This document shows positions 1 through 31,774 of a stretch of 45,452 nt of DNA, in pieces; position 1 is the stretch's first letter; every line of letters starts with the position of its first letter. This DNA comes from a bacterium (GTDB lineage Bacteria > Patescibacteriota > Minisyncoccia > UBA6257 > 2-01-FULL-56-20). The notes below the pieces were generated by a model. The model saw only the letters and a list, made by a program, of their open reading frames with translations, ran no database searches and was not told the origin of the DNA. Both the position numbers and the translations under genes were made by a program. The DNA is taken from NCBI GenBank assembly GCA_027310625.1, contig DAIDAM010000005.1, positions 1-45,452 on the forward strand, written 5' to 3'.

Positions 1-171
1 GGGCTGGGCAGTTCCGCCAGACACATATAACTGGCAGCAGGGGTTGCGCTCGTTACCCCAATTAAGGGAACGCCTCACGGCACGAGCTGACGACCATATA
101 ACTCCAATATTTCTACTGGTACGGACTATACCTTCATTCGGCATGCGCCGAAAGCTGGCGTATTATGGCGA

Positions 172-888
172 TTAAATAATCGCCATCCGTCCCGACGCAT
201 GTCGGGACAAGTCTCTACGGGGTGCGAACGCTGATTTTTGCAATCTTACTGAGTAAGGATAAATTAGAGAAAGAAATTCATTTGTTTCCAACCGAGAAAA
301 ATACAAGCAATACGTTTTGGCGCTGCGATAATAATAAATTTTCATTTTACGAAAATTTATTGAATGCATTAACGCCAAATCACGCTCGGTTTCCTCGCGG
401 TCGCCGTATACAATACGACAATCTCGGTAAAAATCGTTCCCCACCGAACCGTCTCCGTCGAATCTGCCAGCCATGTACGGCAAAATAAGTTTGCCGGAAA
501 TGAAATTCGTCGCATTATTTCTAATTTCTCTGAATTTCCTCAACAAAGGACGGCTATTGATGTATAAGTGATATGCTTTTGTGCGCCTTTTGAATTTATC
601 CGGATGATAAATTCTCAACTTAAATCGCTTGGACGGAAAAAGTTCCAAGAAAAATTCTTGAAATTTTTCTACAAGGTCAGTGTCGGTATTACTTATCCCT
701 ATACTGCTTGTCCGATGGTACCCATCGGCGCACCATAAGCCGACAATATAAGCATCGTCTTTTGTTTTAGGAAACTTCATTCCCTCAAATGGTTCGCTCG
801 TAGAAAATCCATTAGAGTGAATTTTCTCTTCGCTGCCATTAGTAAGATTCCAAAAATCAGCATTCGCACTTCCCACGGTATTGCCCAT
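172..888 (-). CDS. LAGLIDADG homing endonuclease (intron-encoded, two motifs)
   Basis: Motifs AYIVGLWCADGYH and YMAGRFDGDGSV; located inside 16S intron 1. Confidence 0.9.
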   Translation of the reverse strand: MGNTVGSANADFWNLTNGSEEKIHSNGFSTSEPFEGMKFPKTKDDAYIVGLWCADGYHRTSSIGISNTDTDLVEKFQEFFLELFPSKRFKLRIYHPDKFKRRTKAYHLYINSRPLLRKFREIRNNATNFISGKLILPYMAGRFDGDGSVGNDFYRDCRIVYGDREETERDLALMHSINFRKMKIYYYRSAKTYCLYFSRLETNEFLSLIYPYSVRLQKSAFAPRRDLSRHASGRMAII

Positions 889-941
889 GCATAAATTTTA
901 ACATTTGCGCATTAGGGTTTCACCGTTATGAGCCAGTTTTC

Positions 942-972
942 CCGAGCACATAAGTTGTTTATGTGTTTCGAG
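942..972. repeat. Palindrome family A (CCGAGCACATAA-n4-TTATGTGCTCGG), copy 1
   Basis: ccgagcacataagttgtttatgtgtttcgag; inside 16S intron 1. Confidence 0.85.
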
Positions 973-1290
973 GGTGCTACTCCGCCCTCCTGCGGAGAGT
1001 CGAATAAATCAACCATGCAGCACCTGTGACGGCTTCCAATGTTAATCGGCTCCCTTCCCTTTCGGGTCGGTACTACCGCCATTTCAAGCCCTGGTAAGGT
1101 TCCTCGTTTACCATCGAATTAAACCTCATGTTCCACCGCTTGTGCGAGTCCCCGTCTATTCCTTTGAGTTTTAAGCTTGCGCTCGTACTTCCCAGGCGGC
1201 CTGCTTAACGCGTTAACTACGCCACTCCGAGGGTCGATACTCGAAACAGCTAGCAGGCATCGTTTAGGGCGTGGACTACAAGGGTATCTA

Positions 1291-2296
1291 CAATTTTGTT
1301 GCTGCACAACAAACGCTGACTGACGCTGACTTCACGCTGACTTACGCTGAAAAAATTCTGCGTAGTTCTGCGTTCGTTCTGCGTTGGTCTGCGCGTTCGC
1401 TGCGCGAACGAGTCATTTCTGCTCGCCTCTCTATGTCGCCATAGAGTTCGGACTATATCATGTTCGGATATCGGATTTCAGATTTCGGATATCAGAAAAT
1501 TTCAGGGCGAGCGCAGGTTATGTAACCCGCCCATTGATGAATCTGATGTCTGACTTCCGATGTCTGACATCTGAACCTCGGCGTATAGTCTCTGAGGGAA
1601 TTTGCGAACTTCATAAGTGAGGCGGCGCTACGTAGACAACCGCCTTATGCCGGGCTTCAACCATTGTTTTACCTGCGAATTCGCAGTAAACAATCTGGTA
1701 CCCCCGGCGGGCACTTCGGTACTACAGTGGTACTACATATTTCGATTGACTGCAAAAAATTACTAATGCATTGCCACAATCGTACCAACACCGTACCAAC
1801 ACAAATTTGTAAACAGCTATGATTCGCATGCGTCCATGCGAACAAGTGAGAAAAACACCTCACTTATGAAGCTCACAAATCTTCCCTGCTGGTTGTCCGC
1901 ACCGAACAGATTTTCAGTCGCCTAAGGCGACTACTGTCGGATTCTCGGATTTTCCAGCATATAGCTCCGCCGTCGCCTCACGGCTATGGCGGACTCACGA
2001 TTTCGTAATCCTCGCTTACGCTCGGAAACAAAATCGGAGCGAGTTTTCCAAGCACATAATGCGTTATGTGCTCGGGGACTCTGTCTACCCTCACCCTTAT
2101 GAGGGGTTCTGCTCTCGTGTTTGAAACCATAAGTGCAGGTTGCGAGCAAATCAACGAGCGGAGCTGAAAATTTGGCGGTAACAAAATTTTGGTCGGAGCT
2201 TGCCGACGGGAATCGAAATTTTGTCGCCAAATTTCAGCGCAGCGAATATGATTTGCCGCAACCGAACGGGTTTCAAACATGAGAGCAGAACAACGA
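1291..2296 (-). mobile_element. Group I-like intron 3 in 16S (after ...AAAAAGGAT, before TAGATACCC), no homing endonuclease ORF, full of inverted and tandem repeats
   Basis: Removing 1291-2296 restores GGAT|TAGATACCC; U at 5' site and terminal G; P7-like TCAGAGACTATA (approx 1580-1594) and GATATAGTCCG (approx 1448-1460) on minus. Confidence 0.85.
2048..2075. repeat. Palindrome family A, copy 2
   Basis: ccaagcacataatgcgttatgtgctcgg; inside 16S intron 3. Confidence 0.88.
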
Positions 2297-2732
2297 ATCC
2301 TTTTTGCTCCCCACGCTTTCGCGTCTCAGTGTCAGGAAGATCCCAGTGAACTGCCTTCGCCTTTGGTGTTCCGCACGATATCAACGGATTTCACCCCTAC
2401 ACCGTGCGTTCCGTTCACCTCTTATCTCCTCCATCCCGCTCATCTCTTTCGCGATTCCAAAGTTGGGCTTTGGCATTTAACGAAAGATGCAGCGGGACAC
2501 CTACACGCTCTTTACGCCCAATAAATCCGGATAACGCTCGAGGTCTACGTATTACCGCTGGTGCTGGCACGTAGTTACCCACCTCTTTCCGATAAGCACT
2601 CACGTAAGTTGTTACTTATCTACCGCAGTTTACAATCCGAAGACCTTCATCCTGCACGCGGCGTCGCTCGATCAGGCTTTCGCCCATTGTCGAATATTCT
2701 CGACTGCTGCCTCCCGTAGGAGTACGGACCGT

Positions 2733-3438
2733 CATAATGTTTTCCATAATTACTTATGGTATCAGACTATACCTTCACCCTCATACACCAGAGGGGTCTG
2801 CATATTAGCCGCCATTGAATGGTGACTCCTCCGCTATTTGCGGAAAGTCGTTACGGGGTTAAACAGCTCCGAATGTTTTTTCTTGCCGCCCGTATTGGAA
2901 TTCAAATTTCTAATTTCCTTTACGAGCCGCAGAATGTGTTGAAATTCTTTTTCAGATAAGGAACTGCGCACATTAACTTTTGCGCCATCATAAATTTCAA
3001 TAATGGCGAGCATAATCTTTGCTTGCCGTTCTTTGAGCACAATGTGAGGAATTAACCTCTTTAAAACTGCTTTAACTTCATTTCTATCTTGAATAACTAA
3101 TTCCGTTAAATTGTGCATCTCTACGTTTCTCAATGAACCGACATCGCCTAAAAACTTTTGAAGTTTCACGAACATATTCTTATGTCGAATATGTTGCGTG
3201 AAATTTATTTTCAAGCGGATGCGGTACGGGAATCTTCTACGCTCCGGCCGATGTTCTACTGTGGCAACAATAGAACCATCGCCATCAAGAAAACCCGCAA
3301 CGTAGCTATCTGTAAATCTCGAGCTGTCAACTTCCCACGGGATTGTCTTCATGGGGATATTGTAATATATCCCCCAAAAGATTCCCCCGTTATGAGCAGA
3401 GTTTTGCTTCAACGTTGCCGTTGAAGGAGACAAAGTTT
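2733..3438 (-). mobile_element. Group I-like intron 2 in 16S (after ...ACTGAGAT, before ACGGTCCGTACTCC), carries a LAGLIDADG ORF
   Basis: Removing 2733-3438 restores CTGAGAT|ACGGTCC; core-like GTAACGACTTTCC and GAAGGTATAGTCTG; terminal G. Confidence 0.9.
2834..3433 (-). CDS. LAGLIDADG homing endonuclease, single motif (intron-encoded)
   Basis: Motif SYVAGFLDGDGSIVA; located in 16S intron 2. The start may be internal (MKTIPWEVDSSRFTDSYVAG). Confidence 0.85.
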   Translation of the reverse strand: MSPSTATLKQNSAHNGGIFWGIYYNIPMKTIPWEVDSSRFTDSYVAGFLDGDGSIVATVEHRPERRRFPYRIRLKINFTQHIRHKNMFVKLQKFLGDVGSLRNVEMHNLTELVIQDRNEVKAVLKRLIPHIVLKERQAKIMLAIIEIYDGAKVNVRSSLSEKEFQHILRLVKEIRNLNSNTGGKKKHSELFNPVTTFRK

Positions 3439-3906
3439 ATCTCAGTTCCGTCGTTGGGGGTCAGGCTCTCACCTCCCCTACCGGTCGTTGCCTTGGTAGG
3501 CCGTTACCCTACCAACTAGCTGATCGGACCTAGGCCGATCCCGAAGCGTCTTGCGACATTTAATGTTGCCATACTATCGGGCATTACCTCCGATTTCTCG
3601 GAGCTATTCCCGTCTTCAGGGTACGTACCAAGGTGTTACTAACTCGTTCGCCGCTATCGCTCGCACCACGCTGCGCTTGTGCTCCGCTCTATCGCACGAA
3701 TTTACGAATCACCGCGAACTTACGAATTCGTAAATTCGTATACATTCGCTCATTCGTGCGATAACGTGAGCGCCAACGCAATGTGGCGCGAACGACCGCT
3801 CGACTTGCATGCCTTATCCACGCCGCCAGCGTTCATCCTGGACCAGGATCAAATCCTCTATTAGAAATTGTTAGTCCGCTTTAGGCGGGCGTTACAATTT
3901 CTTATA

Positions 3907-3935
3907 CCGAGCACATAACTTGTTATGCGCTTCGG
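3907..3935. repeat. Palindrome family A, copy 3
   Basis: ccgagcacataacttgttatgcgcttcgg; 16S leader. Confidence 0.88.
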
Positions 3936-3987
3936 TTGATTTGTGTAAGTTTTAGTTTGATTCCAAAACAAACAAAATGAATGGACT

Positions 3988-4017
3988 ACCGAGCACATAA
4001 AGTGTTATGTGCTCGGT
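3988..4017. repeat. Palindrome family A, copy 4 (perfect arms)
   Basis: accgagcacataaagtgttatgtgctcggt; 16S leader. Confidence 0.92.
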
Positions 4018-4248
4018 GCTCAAAATTGCAGCCGCTCGATTACTCGCGGGCAATTTTGGCATTGGGACAACTAAAAAACTCTCTTAGTGGCTGTTAACAA
4101 TGAAATTGTGTTACAGCCACTTAGACCTCGCCGTAGGTCGCAGAAAGCGGCCGAAGGCGGGTCATCGCCAAAACTACGCTCACGGGGTGAGCGTGCGTTG
4201 GCTTTCCATATACTGTTGTGAAACTCCAGTCGCGTTCATGACTGAATC

Positions 4249-4276
4249 ATTGTAGCCGCTTATCATCACTTGTCAA
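4249..4276 (-). promoter_or_regulatory. Promoter for 16S: TTGACA-16 nt-TACAAT
   Basis: Minus strand TTGACAAGTGATGATAAGCGGCTACAAT, about 380 nt upstream of the 16S 5' end. Confidence 0.75.
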
Positions 4277-4297
4277 GCAAAACGTGGTGTGTATAAT
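4270..4297 (+). promoter_or_regulatory. Divergent promoter for the rpmE side: TTGTCA-16 nt-TATAAT
   Basis: Plus strand TTGTCAAGCAAAACGTGGTGTGTATAAT, just before the ATG at 4307. Confidence 0.7.
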
Positions 4298-4306
4298 TAG
4301 CGAACT

Positions 4307-4405
4307 ATGAAACCGGACATTCACCCGACATATTACCCCGAAGCGAAAGTCCGCTGCGTCACAGCACCAAAGCAAAGCTTGGTGCTGGACTTCGCTCGGT
4401 AATAA
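4307..4405 (+). pseudogene. N-terminal fragment of a second, diverged L31 gene ([17 protein letters not shown] then unrelated tail)
   Basis: Encodes [31 protein letters not shown]; the first 10 residues match the downstream L31 with several synonymous differences; then hairpin CAGCACCAA-AGCAAAGC-TTGGTGCTG. Confidence 0.7.
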
Positions 4406-4423
4406 ATAAAAACAAGGTTAATC

Positions 4424-4666
4424 ATGAAACCAGATATACATCCAACATATTACGATAAAGCTGTTGTCCGCTGCGCTTGCGGGAAAACTTACACTATCGG
4501 CGCCACCAAGCCGGAAATTCACGTTGAAATCTGCGGCAATTGCCACCCCTTTTACACCGGCGAAGAGAAACTGATTGACACCGCCGGCCGCGTGGAAAAG
4601 TTTAAGAAGCGTCAAACGCGAGCAGCAACTCACAAACCCAAAACGAAAACTAGACAGCGAAAATAG
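4424..4666 (+). CDS. rpmE: 50S ribosomal protein L31 (ends at TAG; frame stays open to TAA near 4813)
   Basis: [10 protein letters not shown]...[47 protein letters not shown]. Confidence 0.95.
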
Positions 4667-4867
4667 ATTATCGAGAAATTCTCCGCCTCCGCCAAAGGCG
4701 GACTCGCCTCTGGCGAGGAAGAGAACCGCGGATCCGCCTCCGGCGGAAAGAAGCGCCAAACGAAAGCGGCGGCGGCTCCGAAAAAAGCTAAGAAAGTTCG
4801 CGTTAAGAAGTAAATACCGCTGGCTTGAGTGATAATTTAAAATTATTTGAGTTAGTGCGCCACTTTG

Positions 4868-4892
4868 GATTGTTGACTTTTTGTCAACAATC
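4868..4892. repeat. Hairpin GATTGTTGACTTTTTGTCAACAATC (related copies at 39320-39342 and 42833-42857)
   Basis: Three intergenic copies of TGTTGACTTTTTGTCAACA or near-identical. Confidence 0.85.
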
Positions 4893-4926
4893 ATTAACTC
4901 CCGGATTTTTGAGGTAAAATAGGAAT

Positions 4927-5664
4927 ATGACGAATAAAATTGTTTTAGAAATTCGCGCCGGAGCTGGCGGCGACGAGGCGGCGATATTCGCCGGCGACCT
5001 CGCGAGGATGTACCAAAAATACGCCGCCCGCAAGGGTTGGGGTTTTGCAATTCTCGATTCCAACGAGACGTCGTTGAACGGTTATAAATCGCTAGTCGCC
5101 GAAATTTCCGGCGAAGGAGTTCGAGAGGCGCTCAAAAACGAATCCGGCGTGCACCGCGTCCAGCGCGTTCCCAAAACCGAAAAAAGCGGGCGCGTGCACA
5201 CTTCCACCGCTTCCGTCGCCGTTCTGCCGATTGTGGAAGCAAAAGAAGTGCAAGTGAATCCGAACGATCTGGAATTGACGCTCTCACGAGCGGGCGGACC
5301 GGGCGGACAGAACGTCAACAAAGTTGAGACCGCCGTACGCATTCTTCACAAGCCGAGCGGCATCGTCGTTTCCTCGCGCGTTGAGCGCTCTCAGCACGCC
5401 AACCGCGAAAAAGCGATGGAAATTCTGCGGGCGAAACTTTACGAAATTGAGCAATTGAAAGCGTCGGGCAATTTGACCGACATCCGTCGCCAGCAAATCG
5501 GCTCCGGCGATCGCTCGGAAAAAATCCGGACGTACAATGTGCCTCAAGATAGAATTACTGATCACAGGATTAACAAAAAATGGGGGAGAATTGAGAGTAT
5601 CCTTGACGGCAATATGGACCCTATCATTGAGGCGTTCAAAAAATTTCCCGCCGCCCAAAATTAA
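4927..5664 (+). CDS. prfA: Peptide chain release factor 1-type protein lacking the usual N-terminal domain
   Basis: [49 protein letters not shown] (GGQ loop). Confidence 0.93.
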
Positions 5665-5774
5665 TTTTGGGCGAGCCCCGTCCAATTTTATTGGGGTGGG
5701 GAGAACAGAATCACCGTTGCCCCGAAATAATTTCGGGGCGAGCCTCGCCTCGATAAAATCGAGGCGGGACCACT

Positions 5775-5860
5775 GCATCGGCGTCAAAGTTCACAACATT
5801 GAAGCTATCCTCGACGGCGGTTTGGATACGCTATTGAACAAAATAAGCAAAAAGAAATAA
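5775..5860 (+). pseudogene. Remnant of a second RF1 C-terminus
   Basis: Out-of-frame DHCIGVKVHNIEAILDGGLDTLLNKISKKK* resembles the RF1 C-terminal DHRIG..LHNLEAILDGDLDPL; follows a palindrome cluster. Confidence 0.65.
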
Positions 5861-5876
5861 AATCCAGAAAGAGTTT

Positions 5877-6344
5877 TTATACCTCTATCACTTCGAATTT
5901 CTCGACAACTTCCCCGTCCTTGTCGAACAAAAACTCTCCGGTGATTTTTTTGCCGGCGAGGACTTTAGGCAGCCAGTGCGGGTCGTCGGGCCACATGGAA
6001 TGGAACGGTAGTTCGCTGTGCGCGTACCACTGCGAGCGCATTTCTTCCGACTCCGCCGGATCGCCTTCCCATTTTTCGGCGACGAAAATATACACTTCCT
6101 GGTCCCAATCGGAATTATCTCTTTTAAAAAAGAATTTTAAGCTTCCGTGTTCCCGCAAATCGCCGGGATTTATGTAAACGCCGATTTCTTCTTCTGTCTC
6201 CCGCGCCGCCGCTTCCCGTACCGGCTCGTCTTCCTCGACCTTCCCGCCGACGCCGTTCCATCTCCCTGCGCCGAATCCCCGCTTTTTCATCGCCAGCAAA
6301 ACTTTTTCTCCCTTTATCAAAAAACACAAGGTCGACTTTCGCAT
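5877..6344 (-). CDS. NUDIX hydrolase, MTH1/8-oxo-dGTP diphosphatase-like
   Basis: Nudix box GGKVEEDEPVREAAARETEEEIGV; likely start MRKSTLCFL. Confidence 0.85.
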   Translation of the reverse strand: MRKSTLCFLIKGEKVLLAMKKRGFGAGRWNGVGGKVEEDEPVREAAARETEEEIGVYINPGDLREHGSLKFFFKRDNSDWDQEVYIFVAEKWEGDPAESEEMRSQWYAHSELPFHSMWPDDPHWLPKVLAGKKITGEFLFDKDGEVVEKFEVIEV

Positions 6345-6469
6345 TGTTGAATATAATAGCAGGCTGACTTCCAAAATGAAAAGTTTAAAGTTGATTTCAA
6401 ACCATTTATATTTTATAAAGTGTGCAGTCACCAAATCCACCTGGATTTGGCACACATGAGAGAGTGGAC

Positions 6470-6781
6470 ATGGACAATCTGCGAATGAAAGTTGGGAAAG
6501 ATGGCACAATCACCTGGAATAAGCCTCGCTCCACTGGGCCGTTTACAATCTGGCTATTCGCTGCCACAAGAGAAAGGCTCTTTCGACTCGATAAAAACAG
6601 AGAAATTGCCAGCGTGAGTCGGGAAAACACGGCGTTACGGCTTGAGCCAGGAAACTATAACGTTGTTGGCGGCCAAATCGTGGCAACGGTCAACTATCTC
6701 AATCTGATCGAGGTCACTGTCGATGGGAAGGTAACCGAGAAAAAGGTTGTGGTTGACGACGCGAGGAAGCTTCTGATCTAA
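6470..6781 (+). CDS. Hypothetical protein
   Basis: Intact ORF MDNLRMKVGKDGTITWNKPRSTG... Confidence 0.5.
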   Translation: MDNLRMKVGKDGTITWNKPRSTGPFTIWLFAATRERLFRLDKNREIASVSRENTALRLEPGNYNVVGGQIVATVNYLNLIEVTVDGKVTEKKVVVDDARKLLI

Positions 6782-6831
6782 CGGCTGTGTGCTGAGATAG
6801 GGGCAGGAACTTCGGTTCCTGCTTTCTTATT

Positions 6832-7134
6832 TTACGCTTCGTCCAGAATCAATTTTTTCTTGAATGTTCCGCGCTCGCCGGCTTTCTTTTTTCTTATCTT
6901 CTCGATTTCCTCTTTGTCAAACCCTTTGTACTCGGCAATAGCGTTTATCACCTCCATAACATCCGCAAATTCTTCATCGCTTTCTTCTTTTACAAACTCG
7001 CCGAACTCTTTCAGCAGTTTTTCTTTCAACTTTTCCCAATATTCCTTTTCGGAAGCAGTATGAACCACCGGCCTTCCGCCTTTCGACAAAATGTACTCCG
7101 GAATTTTATCCCTAACCAGCTTGTTGTATTTCAT
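6832..7134 (-). CDS. MazG-superfamily (phosphoribosyl-ATP pyrophosphohydrolase-like) protein
   Basis: MKYNKLVRDKIPEYILSKGG...EFGEFVKEESDEEFADVMEVINAIAE. Confidence 0.8.
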   Translation of the reverse strand: MKYNKLVRDKIPEYILSKGGRPVVHTASEKEYWEKLKEKLLKEFGEFVKEESDEEFADVMEVINAIAEYKGFDKEEIEKIRKKKAGERGTFKKKLILDEA

Positions 7135-7135
7135 A

Positions 7136-7621
7136 TTACTTAATCAACCCGCCGTGATAGACGGCATAATATATTTGTTTTCCGTCTCTAAAAATTTTTT
7201 CTTTTCCTTCAAAGCGGGTTAAGTCGCCTTCAACATTGTTTTGATATTCAAGATTTTCGATTTTGTAGATTTTTGGTCCGCGCACGGGAATCACGTCGTT
7301 ATAATCCTGTTTGAGCGCGCCGCGGAGCACTTTATCCAACTCCGCTTCCGTAATATCTTGGACGAGATTATAACCATAATAATTCACTCCCCAAGACGGT
7401 TTGCCTTTCTTATACACGATATTCTCACTGATAAAATTCGTCTCGCCAAAATAAGTATCGTGACAAAGAAAATCGCCTTCGGAATATTCATAGTCCCGCG
7501 ACTCCGGTATTTGCGACGGAGTTTTCTTCGCCGTCTCGGAGGCGTACATATTCTTATTGGCGATTTTCAGAAATCGAGCGAGTGAGTCAATGTCCATTTT
7601 GTCCAAAAAACATTCTAACAT
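7136..7621 (-). CDS. DUF5680-like protein; start may be internal (MDIDSLARF)
   Basis: LARFLKIANKNMYAS...YEYSEGDFLCHDTYFGETNFISENIVYKKGKPSWGVNYYG. Confidence 0.6.
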   Translation of the reverse strand: MLECFLDKMDIDSLARFLKIANKNMYASETAKKTPSQIPESRDYEYSEGDFLCHDTYFGETNFISENIVYKKGKPSWGVNYYGYNLVQDITEAELDKVLRGALKQDYNDVIPVRGPKIYKIENLEYQNNVEGDLTRFEGKEKIFRDGKQIYYAVYHGGLIK

Positions 7622-7639
7622 TCTGCAGAATGTTAGAAT
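7612..7639. repeat. Palindrome family B (ATTCTAACATTCTGCAGAATGTTAGAAT), copy 1
   Basis: Perfect 28-bp palindrome at the start of 7136-7621. Confidence 0.9.
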
Positions 7640-7648
7640 ATCGTAAAT

Positions 7649-8242
7649 TCACTCGTCCACGCCGAAACGTTTGTAAACGTGCGGTTTGAAATTTTTTCCG
7701 AACCAGTGTTCGATTTCGTGTTCCGCTTCTTCGGGCGTCTCGGAAGCGTGGAGAATGTTCGCCACCGCCCGTTTCTCGCTGTTGGCGAGCGCCGGCGAGT
7801 CAATGGAAAAATCGCCGCGGATTGTGCCCATGTCCGCGAGATACGGCATCGTGCTGCCGGAAATTTTTCGCACAACATCAACGGCGTGAACGCCCTGCAC
7901 AACCATCCGCACCAGCGGCGCGGAAGTCACGTAATTCAAAAGCCACCCGCGCACCATTTTCCCTATTTCCAAATCGTCTTTCGTTCCGAGTTTCTCAATC
8001 GGGTCAACTCCGTATTTTTCGTAAGTCGCGAGTGTTTTCTGGCCGAGCCGCCGAATCCACGACTCGTCTTTCGGATAATGGTCGTCTATTTCCTTGTGCG
8101 TCGGCTGAAACATTTCCAGCGCGACGATTTTCAAATCCCGCTGTTCAAAACGCCTGATGATTTCGCCCGTAAGTCCCTTGCGAACCCCATCGGGCTTCAC
8201 CATAACAAACGTGACTTCCTCTTTTGGATGTTTTGGCTTCAT
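7649..8242 (-). CDS. ndk: Nucleoside diphosphate kinase (long form)
   Basis: TFVMVKPDGVRKGLTGEIIRRFEQRDLKIVALEMF...MGTIRGDFSIDSPALANSEKRAVANILHASETPEEAEHEI. Confidence 0.9.
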   Translation of the reverse strand: MKPKHPKEEVTFVMVKPDGVRKGLTGEIIRRFEQRDLKIVALEMFQPTHKEIDDHYPKDESWIRRLGQKTLATYEKYGVDPIEKLGTKDDLEIGKMVRGWLLNYVTSAPLVRMVVQGVHAVDVVRKISGSTMPYLADMGTIRGDFSIDSPALANSEKRAVANILHASETPEEAEHEIEHWFGKNFKPHVYKRFGVDE

Positions 8243-8288
8243 AAATTTAATTGCTGCCGATGATAACTCTTATTGAAGTTTTTTGCAA

Positions 8289-9713
8289 TTAATCTTTAAC
8301 GATTTTTATTCCAAGTTCGTCCAGCTGTTTTTCGTCCACATCCGACGGCGTGCCCATCATCGGGTCGCGGAAATCGCCGGTTTTCGGAAAAGCGACGACC
8401 TCGCGGATGTTCGGCTCTCCGAGCAAAATCATAAGCAGGCGGTCGATTCCGGGCGCGATTCCGCCGTGCGGCGGGACGCCGTACGTGAACGCCTCCAAAA
8501 GATGGCCGAAATCTTTTTTTGCTTTCTCTTCGCTCATCCTGAGGAGTTTGAAAACTTTCATTTGCAATTCGGGGTCGGTGATTCTCATACTGCCGCTCGC
8601 AAGCTCACAGCCGTTGCAAACCCAATCGTACTGCGTGCTCGTCATTTTCAGAGGGTCTTTGTCAATCAACTCCACGCTCCCTTCTTTCGGCTGAACAAAC
8701 ATATGGTGAACCGGCTGAATCTCTTTCGTTTGCTTATCCAGCTCAAAATTTGGGAAGTCGACAATCCATGCAAAAGCGATTTCATCGCGGTCGTTTTTGT
8801 CTTTTCTCAAATCTGGTTTGTCGGTTCCGTATTTTTTCATCGCTTCGCTGTACGGAACGCGCGGCCAGGGCGTCTTCATTTTCTTTTCGGGGAAAAATGT
8901 CTCCATCATTTCCGTGAAGAGCGATTCCACAAGCGACATCACCTCTTCCGGCGTCGTAAACGACATTTCAAGGTCGAGCTGGGTGTGTTCCGGCTGTCTG
9001 TCGCCTCTCGTATCTTCGTCGCGGATGGCGCGGGCAATCTGGAAATATTTTTCAATGCCGGCAACCATCAAAAGTTGCTTGTACTGTTGGGGCGATTGCG
9101 GCAGAGCGTAGAATTTGCCTTTTTGCGTCCGCGACGGCACCAGAAAATCCCGCGCGCCTTCCGGCGTTGATTTCGTAAGCAGCGGGGTTTCCACTTCTAT
9201 AAAACCGCGCTGACTCAAATAATCGCGGATGAATTTCACAACTTTGCCGCGGACGATGAGATTCCTTCTGAGCCGTTCGCGCCGCAAATCAAGATAGCGA
9301 TATTTCAACCGCACTTCTTCGTCTATGTCGTAGCCGTCGCCGTCAACGGAAATCGGCAGGGCTTCCGACTTGCTCAAAATCTCCAAACTTGCCGCGCTGA
9401 CTTCGTAAGCGCCGGTTGGAATTTTGTCGTTGACCATTTTCGCCGGCCGCTTTTTCACCTCGCCGCCGACTTTCACCAAATATTCCAACCGCAAATCGCC
9501 GGCATTGTCGGTTGACGCATTTTCGCCAGGGGCGCCACGCCCGCCGTCGGGCAGGGACCCGCCTCGGGCGGGGAAAACAACCTGCGCGATTCCGCTCCGG
9601 TCGCGGAGATCTATGAAAACCAATTTCCCGTGGTCGCGCCGCGCGTGCACCCAGCCGATAAGTTCGATTTCCTCGCCTTCTTTTTTAACAATATCCGTCG
9701 CGTAAACTCTCAT
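8289..9713 (-). CDS. aspS: Aspartate-tRNA ligase, apparently lacking the GAD insertion domain
   Basis: IELIGWVHARRDHGKLVFIDLRDRSGIAQVVF; DEDTRGDRQPEHTQLDLEMSF; GIAPGIDRLLMILLGEPNIREVVAFPK. Confidence 0.93.
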   Translation of the reverse strand: MRVYATDIVKKEGEEIELIGWVHARRDHGKLVFIDLRDRSGIAQVVFPARGGSLPDGGRGAPGENASTDNAGDLRLEYLVKVGGEVKKRPAKMVNDKIPTGAYEVSAASLEILSKSEALPISVDGDGYDIDEEVRLKYRYLDLRRERLRRNLIVRGKVVKFIRDYLSQRGFIEVETPLLTKSTPEGARDFLVPSRTQKGKFYALPQSPQQYKQLLMVAGIEKYFQIARAIRDEDTRGDRQPEHTQLDLEMSFTTPEEVMSLVESLFTEMMETFFPEKKMKTPWPRVPYSEAMKKYGTDKPDLRKDKNDRDEIAFAWIVDFPNFELDKQTKEIQPVHHMFVQPKEGSVELIDKDPLKMTSTQYDWVCNGCELASGSMRITDPELQMKVFKLLRMSEEKAKKDFGHLLEAFTYGVPPHGGIAPGIDRLLMILLGEPNIREVVAFPKTGDFRDPMMGTPSDVDEKQLDELGIKIVKD

Positions 9714-9775
9714 TTAATAATTTCTTGATACTTGATACCTGATACCTGACGCTGATTGTGTTATACTATACTTTA

Positions 9776-10228
9776 ATGATGGAGTTTTCTCAAATGCTCA
9801 CCAATTTTGTCGTCGCTCTCGCTTTGGGCGCACTCATCGGATTGGAACGCGAACTGGCGGGCAAGGAAGCGGGCATCCGCACTTCGCTGATGGTTTCCGG
9901 CGGAGCATCGCTCTTTGCAATAATGGCTTTAGTTGCTCCATCGCTTGTAAAACCCGAGAGCTCGGGGGCGGCATTGGCGATACTTGCGAACATCGTCGTC
10001 GGCATCGGATTCCTCGGCGCGGGAATTATTCTGAAAACGGAAGAGAGAGTTCACGGATTGACGACCGCCGCCGTTGTTTGGGCGACCGCCGCAGTGGGAG
10101 CGCTTGCCGGCATCGGATTTTTGGGATTCGCGGCAACAACTGCAATTATTTTCGCCGGGATATTGTATATCCTCAGAAAAGTTGGATTGGTGGAAAAGAT
10201 AGGAGGAAATCATCGCAACGTCATTTAA
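9776..10228 (+). CDS. MgtC/SapB family membrane protein
   Basis: LALGALIGLERELAGKEAGIRTSLMVSGGASLF...GIGFLGAGIILKTEERVHGLTTAAVVWATAAVG. Confidence 0.88.
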   Translation: MMEFSQMLTNFVVALALGALIGLERELAGKEAGIRTSLMVSGGASLFAIMALVAPSLVKPESSGAALAILANIVVGIGFLGAGIILKTEERVHGLTTAAVVWATAAVGALAGIGFLGFAATTAIIFAGILYILRKVGLVEKIGGNHRNVI

Positions 10229-10860
10229 TTGGTTCGACTATTGCTCACCACAAACCAGAAACGCAAGTGCCGCTTTGACCAATAAGGTCCTGCATAATTA
10301 ACACCGACGCGCGGACCTTTTTTGATTTTTGAAGCGGGAATTTTTACTCCCCTGTCCTCGATCCACAATCCGCTTTTTTTCGTCGCCGGCTTGCCGTTTA
10401 ATTTTCCGTCAATTTTTAAAAGCTCCGTCAGTTTGCCGGGGCCGGAAGCGCCGATTACGCCCCGAATCAAAACGGCTGCCGGATATCCTTTTTCCCGCGT
10501 GACAATGTTCAGCATCCAATGAACGCCGTAGGTGAAATAAACGTACCAATGTCCGGGTTTTCCGAACATCGGCGCGTTCCGTTTGGTCTTGCCGCGGCTG
10601 GCGTGCGAAGCGCGGTCGCCGAAGCCGTCGTACGCCTCCACTGCGGTTATCATCATAGCCGCAAGACGGCTCGCGGATTTACGCCGATTCACCTGCCTAA
10701 ATTTCCCTCCGAAATTTTGGCGGGTAAGCGCGGATTCACGCGGAAACCGACGGACCAAAAATTTTCCCAAAAGCGATTTTGCGACCGCCAAAGTGGAACG
10801 ATTGAAAAATTTTCCCCGAAGCGTTTTCCTTCTCGTTTTCCCTGGTCTCATTTTTACCAT
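10225..10860 (-). CDS. 3-methyladenine DNA glycosylase (AAG/MPG family) with a repeat-derived insertion
   Basis: AVEAYDGFGDRASHASRGKTKRNAPMFGKPGHWYVYFTYGVHWMLNIVTREKGYPAAVLIRG. Confidence 0.88.
   Translation of the reverse strand: MVKMRPGKTRRKTLRGKFFNRSTLAVAKSLLGKFLVRRFPRESALTRQNFGGKFRQVNRRKSASRLAAMMITAVEAYDGFGDRASHASRGKTKRNAPMFGKPGHWYVYFTYGVHWMLNIVTREKGYPAAVLIRGVIGASGPGKLTELLKIDGKLNGKPATKKSGLWIEDRGVKIPASKIKKGPRVGVNYAGPYWSKRHLRFWFVVSNSRTN
10672..10744. repeat. Family C element (CTTxCCCxCCxAAATTTC...GAAATTT...GGTGAATCxGCG) inside DNA glycosylase CDS
   Basis: Minus GCGCTTACCCGCCAAAATTTCGGAGGGAAATTTAGGCAGGTGAATCGGCG. Confidence 0.7.
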
Positions 10861-10923
10861 TTTAAGTAAAACGGCACCTTCCCGCTAATCTTGACTCCGC
10901 ACTTTTTAGCAAAAGGGGCGGGG

Positions 10924-10951
10924 TTGACATATCCTCAGCTCGCGCTATAAT
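10924..10951 (+). promoter_or_regulatory. Sigma70-type promoter TTGACA-16 nt-TATAAT
   Basis: TTGACATATCCTCAGCTCGCGCTATAAT. Confidence 0.7.
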
Positions 10952-10980
10952 GGTTTTAACTGAATAGATTGTATCGAGAA

Positions 10981-11010
10981 ACTCGCTAAACAGCGGGGTT
11001 TTTATTTAAG
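10981..11010 (+). terminator. Short intrinsic terminator/attenuator close to the TSS
   Basis: CTCGCT-AAAC-AGCGGGG followed by TTTTTATTT. Confidence 0.5.
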
Positions 11011-11157
11011 CATCCGAATAGCGGTATCCGAATAGCCCTGACAAATAGGCACATCCGAATATCGCCCATCCGAATCAAAAATATTCGGAGCATTCGGATG
11101 TATTCGCAGATTCGGATCGCGTGTGGAAGTTTTGGCGGCAGCTCATAACCGCCGATT

Positions 11158-11655
11158 ATGCAAACAATTTTAGCAAAAATACTGGCGGCGGGATTTGCGG
11201 CAAGTATGACCATTGGCGGACAAACCACCCCCCAAACGCTTAACGCAACGATAACGCCGGCAGTAATATACTCCCAAAACGGTAATATTGTAGTTATCCC
11301 TTCAGCAGAACGCGCCGTGAATACAAATCTTGATGCTTGGATAGAAAATCTTGCCCTCCTTGAATCAAAAGGCAGGAACAACATAAAAGTTCTTGACTAT
11401 AACGGGCTCCACTCTTTCGGCTGTCTGCAATTCCAGATAAGCACGTTCGCGGAATTCGGAACGAAGTACGGTTTCTTCTCCCAAAACGATAATATCGGGA
11501 AACTGATTTACGATTGCGAACTCCAGAAAAAAATCGCGAAGCTTATGATTCTTGAAAACCCGGACAACTGGCGGAGATGGTACACGTCGGTTGTAACAAA
11601 GGGTCTCGGTCTGCCGCCAATTGACGAAAAACCTGTTCTGCTTTCGCTGAGATGA
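11158..11655 (+). CDS. Secreted protein with lysozyme/transglycosylase-like region
   Basis: Signal-like N-terminus; LLESKGRNNIKVLDYNGLHSFGCLQFQISTFAEFG...ENPDNWRRWYTSVVTKGLG. Confidence 0.6.
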   Translation: MQTILAKILAAGFAASMTIGGQTTPQTLNATITPAVIYSQNGNIVVIPSAERAVNTNLDAWIENLALLESKGRNNIKVLDYNGLHSFGCLQFQISTFAEFGTKYGFFSQNDNIGKLIYDCELQKKIAKLMILENPDNWRRWYTSVVTKGLGLPPIDEKPVLLSLR

Positions 11656-11689
11656 TGAACTTGCTTCAGTTCGAAAAATTTGTTAAGAT

Positions 11690-12175
11690 GATGACGCTGG
11701 TAATCCAGGTAATAGGTCGCCTTAGGCGACAGGAAAGTCCGGACACCGCTCCGACTTTGGTCGGGGAAGCGTATCCGCTAACAGCGGACCGCAGTAATGC
11801 GAGAGGTGCGAGCAGAGACGTCCCGAAGCGAAAGTTTCGGGAGAGCCCAATCTCAACGTTGTCGGCTCAGTCCCGCCATAGAGATAAAAAAACGGGAGTG
11901 AAACGGCTAAATCCTTACAGGGTGCAAGGCCGCGCCGAAGCACATAAAGCAATTTATGTGCTCGGAGTGCCGCTCGAGTTCGAGAGCAATCGAGAACCCA
12001 GATAAATTATTACACCGATTTTGTTTTCGAGCTTTGCGAGAAAATACAAAATCGAGTGTCCCGCAGAAGCGAAAGCGGAAGCGGGACCCCGCCGATGGCG
12101 GGATGCTCGGTTTCGTAATATCGCTTCGCTCAAACGAAACCGGCACAGAATCCGGCTTACGGATTACCAACGCAA
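11690..12175 (+). ncRNA. rnpB: RNase P RNA (expanded, with a palindromic insertion)
   Basis: AGGAAAGTCCGGACACC near 5' end; GGGTGCAAGGCC; ACAGAATCCGGCTTACGG near 3' end; P1 TGGTAATCC/GGATTACCA. Confidence 0.93.
11935..11965. repeat. Palindrome family A, copy 5
   Basis: ccgaagcacataaagcaatttatgtgctcgg; inside rnpB. Confidence 0.9.
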
Positions 12176-30727: not shown

Positions 30728-31774
30728 TCAGAGCACAACCTCAACGGGCTTCAACGAAGCTGAAAGAAAACGCTTGTAGTGGTCGAAATTTTCCGCAGTG
30801 AGACCGAGGCCGCGGACTACGGCCGTCAAGGGATTGTCAGTTACGGTCGTTGCAATTCCCGTCTCGCTTTCTATCAGCCGGTCCATGCCGCGAAGAAGCG
30901 CGCCGCCGCCGGAAACGTAAATCCCCTGCTTGAGCATGTCGCCGACGAGCTCCGGCGGAGCAAGTTCTATCATCTCCTTTATGGAGTCGGTTATGGAACG
31001 AAGCGATTTGCCGAGGGCGGCGCGGATGTGACTGTTCTTTACGATTACCTCCTTCGGCAATCCGGTTGAAAGGTCCATTCCGCGAACCGCGACGTCCAGT
31101 CTTTCATCAAGGGGAACGGCCGAGCCGGCGGCAATCTTTGCGTATTCCGCCGTCGGTTCTCCCACGGCGAGCTTAAACTCGTCGCGCATGAACTTCATTA
31201 TGTCGTCATTGAATTTGTCGCCGGCGACTTTGAGTGTTTTATAAATCACCGTCCCGCCCATTGAAATCACCGCTATATCGGTCGTTCCCCCTCCTATGTC
31301 AACGACCATGCTCGCTGTCGGCTCCTCCACGGGCAAACCTATGCCGAGGGCAACCGCCATCGGGGCTCCCATAAGATGAACTTTCGCGCATCCCGCCTGC
31401 GTCGCGGCGTCCTCAACCGATTTCCTTTCCACCTCCGTAAGGTCGTCGGGAACGGCAAGAACCGCGCGCCTCACGCCGCCGAAAGACCTTCTGCCGTTCA
31501 AACGCTTCAGAAACTGCCTCAAAAGCTCTTGCGTCATGTCGAAATCGGAAATGACGCCGTTGACGAGCGGACGTATCACGCTTATGTGCTCCGGCGTCCG
31601 CCCGATCATTTTTTTCGCTTTCTCACCCACCGCAAGAATCTCCATTGTTTTATTGTTAATCGCCGCCACCGTCGGTTCGTTCAAAACAAGCCCCCTGTTC
31701 TTCTGGTAAACGAGAGAATTTGCCGTGCCGAGGTCTATCCCAACTTCTTTCAAAAAATCGTCAAAGATGGACAT
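30728..31774 (-). CDS. mreB: Rod shape-determining protein MreB
   Basis: VGIDLGTANSLVYQKNRGLVLNEPTVAAI; MVVDIGGGTTDIAVISMGG; GIYVSGGGALLRGMDRLI. Confidence 0.95.
   Translation of the reverse strand: MSIFDDFLKEVGIDLGTANSLVYQKNRGLVLNEPTVAAINNKTMEILAVGEKAKKMIGRTPEHISVIRPLVNGVISDFDMTQELLRQFLKRLNGRRSFGGVRRAVLAVPDDLTEVERKSVEDAATQAGCAKVHLMGAPMAVALGIGLPVEEPTASMVVDIGGGTTDIAVISMGGTVIYKTLKVAGDKFNDDIMKFMRDEFKLAVGEPTAEYAKIAAGSAVPLDERLDVAVRGMDLSTGLPKEVIVKNSHIRAALGKSLRSITDSIKEMIELAPPELVGDMLKQGIYVSGGGALLRGMDRLIESETGIATTVTDNPLTAVVRGLGLTAENFDHYKRFLSASLKPVEVVL

Follow-up and report, generated by a model that had tools for sequence, protein, structure and literature searches.

Intervening sequences of 23S and 16S ribosomal RNA (rRNA) are extra hairpins at variable helix tips and are cut by RNase III. 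The repetitive hairpin-forming elements (RHE) of sponge mitochondria have conserved stems and variable loops, and copies are found both intergenically and in rRNA genes, at length-variable sites (PMC2800124). In bacteria, REP and REPIN sequences, which go with RAYT transposases, are intergenic palindromes of 20-40 nt and are probably non-autonomous mobile DNA (PMC3733652). Heterocyst-forming cyanobacteria are cited as having STRR repeats within rnpB, their gene for RNase P RNA (Vioque, 1997, as cited in PMC2858038). The rRNA genes of the Candidate Phyla Radiation (CPR) carry insertions, namely introns with homing endonucleases, and the words hairpin, palindrom- and repeat are absent from the main text that describes them (PMC11270868). 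The element considered here is a hairpin of ∼30 nt with the consensus ACC-GAGCACATAA-loop-TTATGTGCTC-GGT, where the loop is mostly 4 nt, found in a patescibacterial contig (DAIDAM010000005.1, positions 1 to 45,452; this whole stretch of 45,452 nt is termed the window). No published description of the hairpin was found in the open-access library searched, which omits most subscription papers and all preprints.

The hairpin is dispersed, is present or absent at given sites between relatives, forms a clean insertion in one case, sits at helix tips and is enriched in RNA genes. Comparison of genomes suggests that it is probably mobile. We think it fairly probable that it is a non-autonomous element resembling REP and RHE, which spread as DNA in Patescibacteria and is tolerated at the helix tips of structural RNAs.

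Copies of the hairpin in the window and in its genome

The window was scanned for arms with up to 3 mismatches around a 4-nt spacer. This fixed-spacing pattern gave 3 matches, with 0 expected from 100 dinucleotide shuffles, and the total is five copies, one perfect and four with small changes in the arms. These are the five places named in a first-pass annotation of this DNA, and the rest of the window has no further hairpin, only a lone 10-nt arm at 31582. The perfect copy (3989-4016, minus strand) is in the region upstream of the 16S rRNA gene, as is a copy with 3 mismatches (3907-3934, minus strand), located in the leader before the 16S start. A third copy, with 1 mismatch (2048-2075, minus strand), is in a 16S insert within a small-subunit (SSU) rRNA match at 1195-2844; its single arm change gives a G-U pair when read on the rRNA strand. 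At 942-970 (minus strand), where the 16S gene carries inserts, the 3′ arm is degenerate (TTATGTGTTTCG / TTATGTGTTT) and the loop, GTTGT, has 5 nt. In the fifth copy (11935-11965, plus strand) the loop is longer and the 5′ arm contains one additional A. This copy forms a terminal hairpin of RNase P RNA that varies between lineages, and lies within the rnpB gene at 11697-12174 (plus strand; RF00010, 80.5 bits, E 2.6e-25, under the Rfam gathering score). The annotation's statement that the arms keep their sequence applies fully to the 3989 copy, nearly to two others and only loosely to those at 942 and 11935, and the 4-nt loops it described are found at 2048, 3907 and 3989.

The genome assembly that includes the window (766 kb) was covered by searches and by chosen stretches. 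The 10-nt arm GAGCACATAA occurs 27 times, nearly always in inverted pairs, versus 0 times for the reversed control. There are ∼21 hairpins. Ten are RNA-associated: six are inside rRNA genes (introns and inserts included) or rnpB, and four are within ∼350 nt of 16S. The other 11 are between protein genes, several of them within operons, such as pil (pilN, pilB and pilC leaders) and a ribosomal protein operon; gene names of neighbours were taken from translations by reading, not by profile search. Thus, the claim that the family is found only inside structured RNA loci is wrong, because 11 of the ∼21 copies are intercistronic or intergenic, and the association of five out of five in the window arose because the window happens to contain the 16S and rnpB loci. 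The annotation had also stated that many copies in ordinary intergenic or coding DNA would reduce the RNA association to chance. About half of the copies are indeed intergenic or intercistronic, yet the link with structured RNA is not due to chance: independent genomes carry the hairpin within 23S, 16S, rnpB and group I introns, and in this genome the enrichment in RNA genes is real, with 10 of 21 copies in ∼1.5% of its length (2e-13). It is weaker when measured against non-coding DNA (2e-4, with the RNA share put at ∼14%, a rough estimate). Like REPs, the hairpin is a short palindrome in the 20-40 nt range that is dispersed in intergenic DNA. A DNA uptake sequence was considered and rejected, as the 27 arms are nearly all in inverted pairs, versus the hundreds of single unpaired copies, coding regions included, of such sequences.

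The hairpin is also found as part of larger elements. The pilB and pilC leaders carry a near-identical composite of ∼170 nt with the hairpin in the middle. Composites of this type, termed composite A, are structured, ∼170-190 nt in length, have the hairpin at the centre and abut start codons (...CAAAATTGGC-ATG); the position, 52-76 nt upstream of the start codon, is nearly fixed in most copies. In several Parcubacteria they precede pil, ribosomal-protein, secE-like and other genes (L010 2000-2270, 3670-3860 and 6760-6950; L006 5480-5790). A leader peptide read from an AUG in the 3′ arm (MCSVL...) has a mixed frame relative to the next gene and variable lengths, and a conserved coupled peptide is not supported. 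In the window, a composite A-like hairpin composite is found in the 16S leader by flank alignment (3860-4066, ends approximate, minus strand) and contains the 3907 and 3989 copies. The flank GGTGCTCAAAATTG of the latter is also present in intercistronic composite A, and window positions 3987-4038 match the pilB leader copy at the DNA level. A second type, composite B, is intercistronic and resembles a three-way junction with variable stems, capped by the hairpin (L018, L026, L035, L040, L055, L062, L064, L072, L076, L096 and L101). Its recurrent motifs are CCAGCG, CTCGG, GGACCAAGC and CTCCG. Composite B does not correspond to an Rfam family, with matches only far under the gathering score.

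Other features of the window surround these copies. The 16S rRNA gene is represented at 1-3870 (minus strand; RF00177 match) by its 5′ and middle parts with inserts, together with group I intron matches below the gathering score. LAGLIDADG open reading frames are at 172-888 and 2834-3433 (Pfam LAGLIDADG_3 and LAGLIDADG_1); the first of these is beside the 942-970 copy, which falls in a weak SSU match at 936-1124 (minus strand). The palindrome GTCGCCTTAGGCGAC is common to a 16S insert (1911-1931) and the start of rnpB (11716-11736), and a similar sequence, GTCGCCTAAGGCGAC, is close to the 16S 3′ end in locus L007.

Occurrence in other genomes and at RNA helix tips

A public scan of 84,980 genomes that required exact arms, and hence overstates arm conservation, gave 94 stretches in other genomes, mostly Parcubacteria and other Patescibacteria, where ∼2 are expected by an arithmetic estimate. 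Coincidence, or transcription terminators that look alike, can be given scarcely any credence as the source of these matches. The few exact matches outside Patescibacteria (Emticicia, Proteus and a Bacilli metagenome-assembled genome, MAG) do adjoin A/T runs, as terminators would, but the number of stretches and the presence of copies within mature rRNA, rnpB and operons refute this explanation for the hairpin family as a whole. Phage carriage was rejected, with a single IMG/VR match. One apparent Spirochaetia host (L077, QYPD01000041.1) was likewise set aside; its match with a Wolfebacteria contig extends across several genes, and mis-binning is probable.

Among relatives the distribution is patchy. 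Seven of 61 genomes, with the present one included, have the hairpin at up to 3 mismatches, and order-wide 46 of 244 match a looser pattern at the foot of the hairpin, some of them by chance. Relaxed matching on the fetched loci gave 131 copies from 52 genomes. Inside 23S, 16S, rnpB or group I introns there are 28 of these, and 12 more are within 350 nt; Rfam was applied to 56 of the 94 outside loci and the remainder were checked by rRNA BLAST, rnpB motifs and ARAGORN only. A congener (G001) has a hairpin that is identical, loop included, to that of the Liptonbacteria MAG behind locus L099, and the most likely source of the window is therefore a Liptonbacteria-type Patescibacterium.

In structural RNAs the copies are found at helix tips. 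In an alignment of six 23S genes, four helix tips hold the hairpin, each of them in two to four genomes, and a single Niyogibacteria 23S has six copies. Two copies are present in one RNase P RNA. Elsewhere, as in the genome under study, the same 23S tips carry plain hairpins or other palindromic repeats. In the comparison of rnpB in relatives that the annotation proposed, L077 and L100 have an GAGCACATAA-type hairpin at the site occupied in the window, ∼20 relatives have hairpins of other kinds there, and the congener lacks it. Other genomes of the order have a variant with the stem GAGCACTCAA at the tip of 16S h44 and on a 23S helix, which it caps. The hairpin accounts for some of the variation in helix length of Patescibacteria rRNA. 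A second palindrome of ∼75 nt (CTATCGCGCGAAT...TTCGTAAATTCGTGCGATAG) is found in the genome under study in the 16S V1 region (window 3690-3763) and at several 23S tips (L009 4799-6500); some of these tips are the ones with the GAGCACATAA hairpin in other genomes.

Probable movement of the hairpin and alternative explanations

The congener is without the hairpin at five sites that are occupied in the genome under study: the leaders of pilN, pilB and pilC, the spacer at rpsH and the tip in rnpB. In a Deferribacteraceae MAG (UBA1873), a host palindromic repeat is found both empty (GTCATTTCGACCGGAGCGGAGAAATCTC) and filled (GTCATTTCGACCGGA-[ACC hairpin GGT]-GGAGTGGAGAAATCTC). The filled form displays a clean 30-nt insertion with GGA on both sides. 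A further sign of movement is that loops agree more within genomes than between them. The annotation had offered two options, a selfish hairpin that survives in peripheral helices or an RNA landmark bound by a trans factor. The first fits best, in view of presence and absence in the congener, the near-identical composites, the filled and empty pair and the helix-tip positions.

Several observations weigh against mobility. The seven copies in UBA1873 are probably the product of a single insertion event, and across the hairpin copies no convincing or general target-site duplication was found. The congener carries an orthologous stem in the rplV-rpsC spacer, with bases that covary, and this site accordingly looks inherited and diverging, not newly inserted. 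Different families have the hairpin at the same 23S sites; inheritance or function would explain this as well. In addition, no mobilizing enzyme was identified; the only Y1 (IS200-like) transposase found in the genome sits amid copies of a different palindrome, AGGAAGTCGGACTTCCT.

This last point bears on whether the hairpin is a GTAG/CGTC-type REP mobilized by a RAYT (IS200-like Y1) transposase. The size class and genomic habit are right for REPs (PMC3733652), and the genome encodes one Y1_Tnp protein, but the foot of the hairpin shows no excess of GTAG or CGTC (9 and 8 of 131 copies versus 8.5 and 7.5 in the control), and in this genome the Y1 gene is not flanked by the hairpin. Membership in the RAYT/REP family was rejected, as both the foot tag and a Y1 gene with the same palindrome are lacking, and an origin of this kind is very improbable. 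The Y1_Tnp gene (C10:105364) has five AGGAAGTCGGACTTCCT copies around it. They are exact, ring the gene and also lie within its open frame, five in 2 kb (G000:C10:105119-107042, L107), and the rest of the genome has no match of that identity. The gene and AGGAAGTCGGACTTCCT are likely to form a transposase-palindrome unit of their own.

The hairpins might instead be inherited helix tips that are kept alike, without transposition, by palindrome correction during replication or by gene conversion. The 23S sites common to several families and the covarying stem at rplV-rpsC are in keeping with this, as is the homogenization of loops within genomes: the rate of matching loops is 12% within a genome and 3.3% between genomes (permutation p 0.0005), and 23S loops are TTTA in one genome and CTTG in another. 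Yet inheritance leaves unexplained the intercistronic copies that are absent in the congener, the filled and empty UBA1873 repeat and the copies in unrelated host structures, and it appears improbable.

The main rival reading is that of a functional RNA landmark, a sequence-specific hairpin that a trans factor such as an RNA-binding protein, an RNase or a methyltransferase would bind in order to act alike on introns, intercistronic leaders, rRNA and RNase P RNA. In rRNA copies read on the RNA strand, changes that retain pairing prevail, with 18 G-U versus 7 A-C cells, and the outer base pairs covary at the first two positions beyond the fixed arms. Both are as expected for copies that fold in RNA; they are no proof of a separate role because rRNA function alone would select for pairing. 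A landmark would also account for conserved arms next to variable loops and outer stems, for identical 23S tips occupied in several families, for the nearly fixed position of composite A and for the capping of 23S and 16S h44 by the GAGCACTCAA variant. On the other side are the patchiness among relatives, the five sites without a hairpin in the congener, the unrelated hairpins at the same tips in relatives and an arm conservation that is partly ascertained, because the public scan required exact arms. A landmark role is thus possible but unlikely. Somewhat more doubtful is a shared RNA tag, with a Patescibacteria RNA-binding factor that recognizes GAGCACAUAA hairpins wherever they occur, be it in rRNA, in RNase P RNA, in introns or in structured mRNA leaders; if true, ribosome assembly would be linked with tRNA processing and leader control. 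An operator for a dimeric DNA-binding protein is ruled out by the spacer between the arms, which ranges from 3 to ∼80 nt.

For the favoured reading, that of a mobile hairpin, the following course can be proposed. Copies would be made by DNA transposition, probably via a trans-acting enzyme, and would land in transcribed non-coding DNA. Selection against disruptive insertions may then set the distribution. In structural RNAs and structured leaders, the survivors would be those copies that extend an existing helix at its tip or take the place of that tip; if only these survive, the hairpin would appear as a helix cap in 16S, 23S, RNase P RNA and group I introns. It would also appear as a module within larger palindromic repeats. 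The likeness of the arms across the phylum might reflect recent spread, transfer between lineages or recognition by the enzyme.

Across much of a phylum, one short repeat is thus present in those RNAs of the cell that are under the strongest constraint, and in uncultured genomes it may be an easy marker for the mobility of repeats. Arms that proved to be bound by a factor would provide a shared handle on several core RNAs.

Comparison with known elements

Closest in habit, along with bacterial REPs, are the mitochondrial RHE, together with the double hairpin elements and GC clusters of fungal mitochondria (PMC2800124); the comparison concerns habit alone and not sequence kinship. Like RHE, the present hairpin has a conserved stem, a variable loop and many dispersed copies, and its copies in rRNA genes are at length-variable sites. 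Like RHE and the fungal elements, it is often in tandem with other hairpins, scattered intergenically and found in rRNA genes. It differs from these mitochondrial elements in that it is found in bacterial chromosomes of many Patescibacteria species, with the same core across many families, and is also present in RNase P RNA and group I introns.

REP and REPIN sequences are similar in size and intergenic placement, but the GTAG/CGTC tag is missing here and the Y1 gene is tied to another palindrome. The STRR sequences are also dispersed repeats within rnpB, but, as cited, are short tandem repeats rather than a hairpin module. The CPR introns (PMC11270868) are from rRNA genes of the same phylum and host some of the copies, although the hairpin itself is not an intron. 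Copies at rRNA helix tips recall the intervening sequences that are processed by RNase III. The hairpin is much shorter than these, however, and is dispersed outside rRNA as well.

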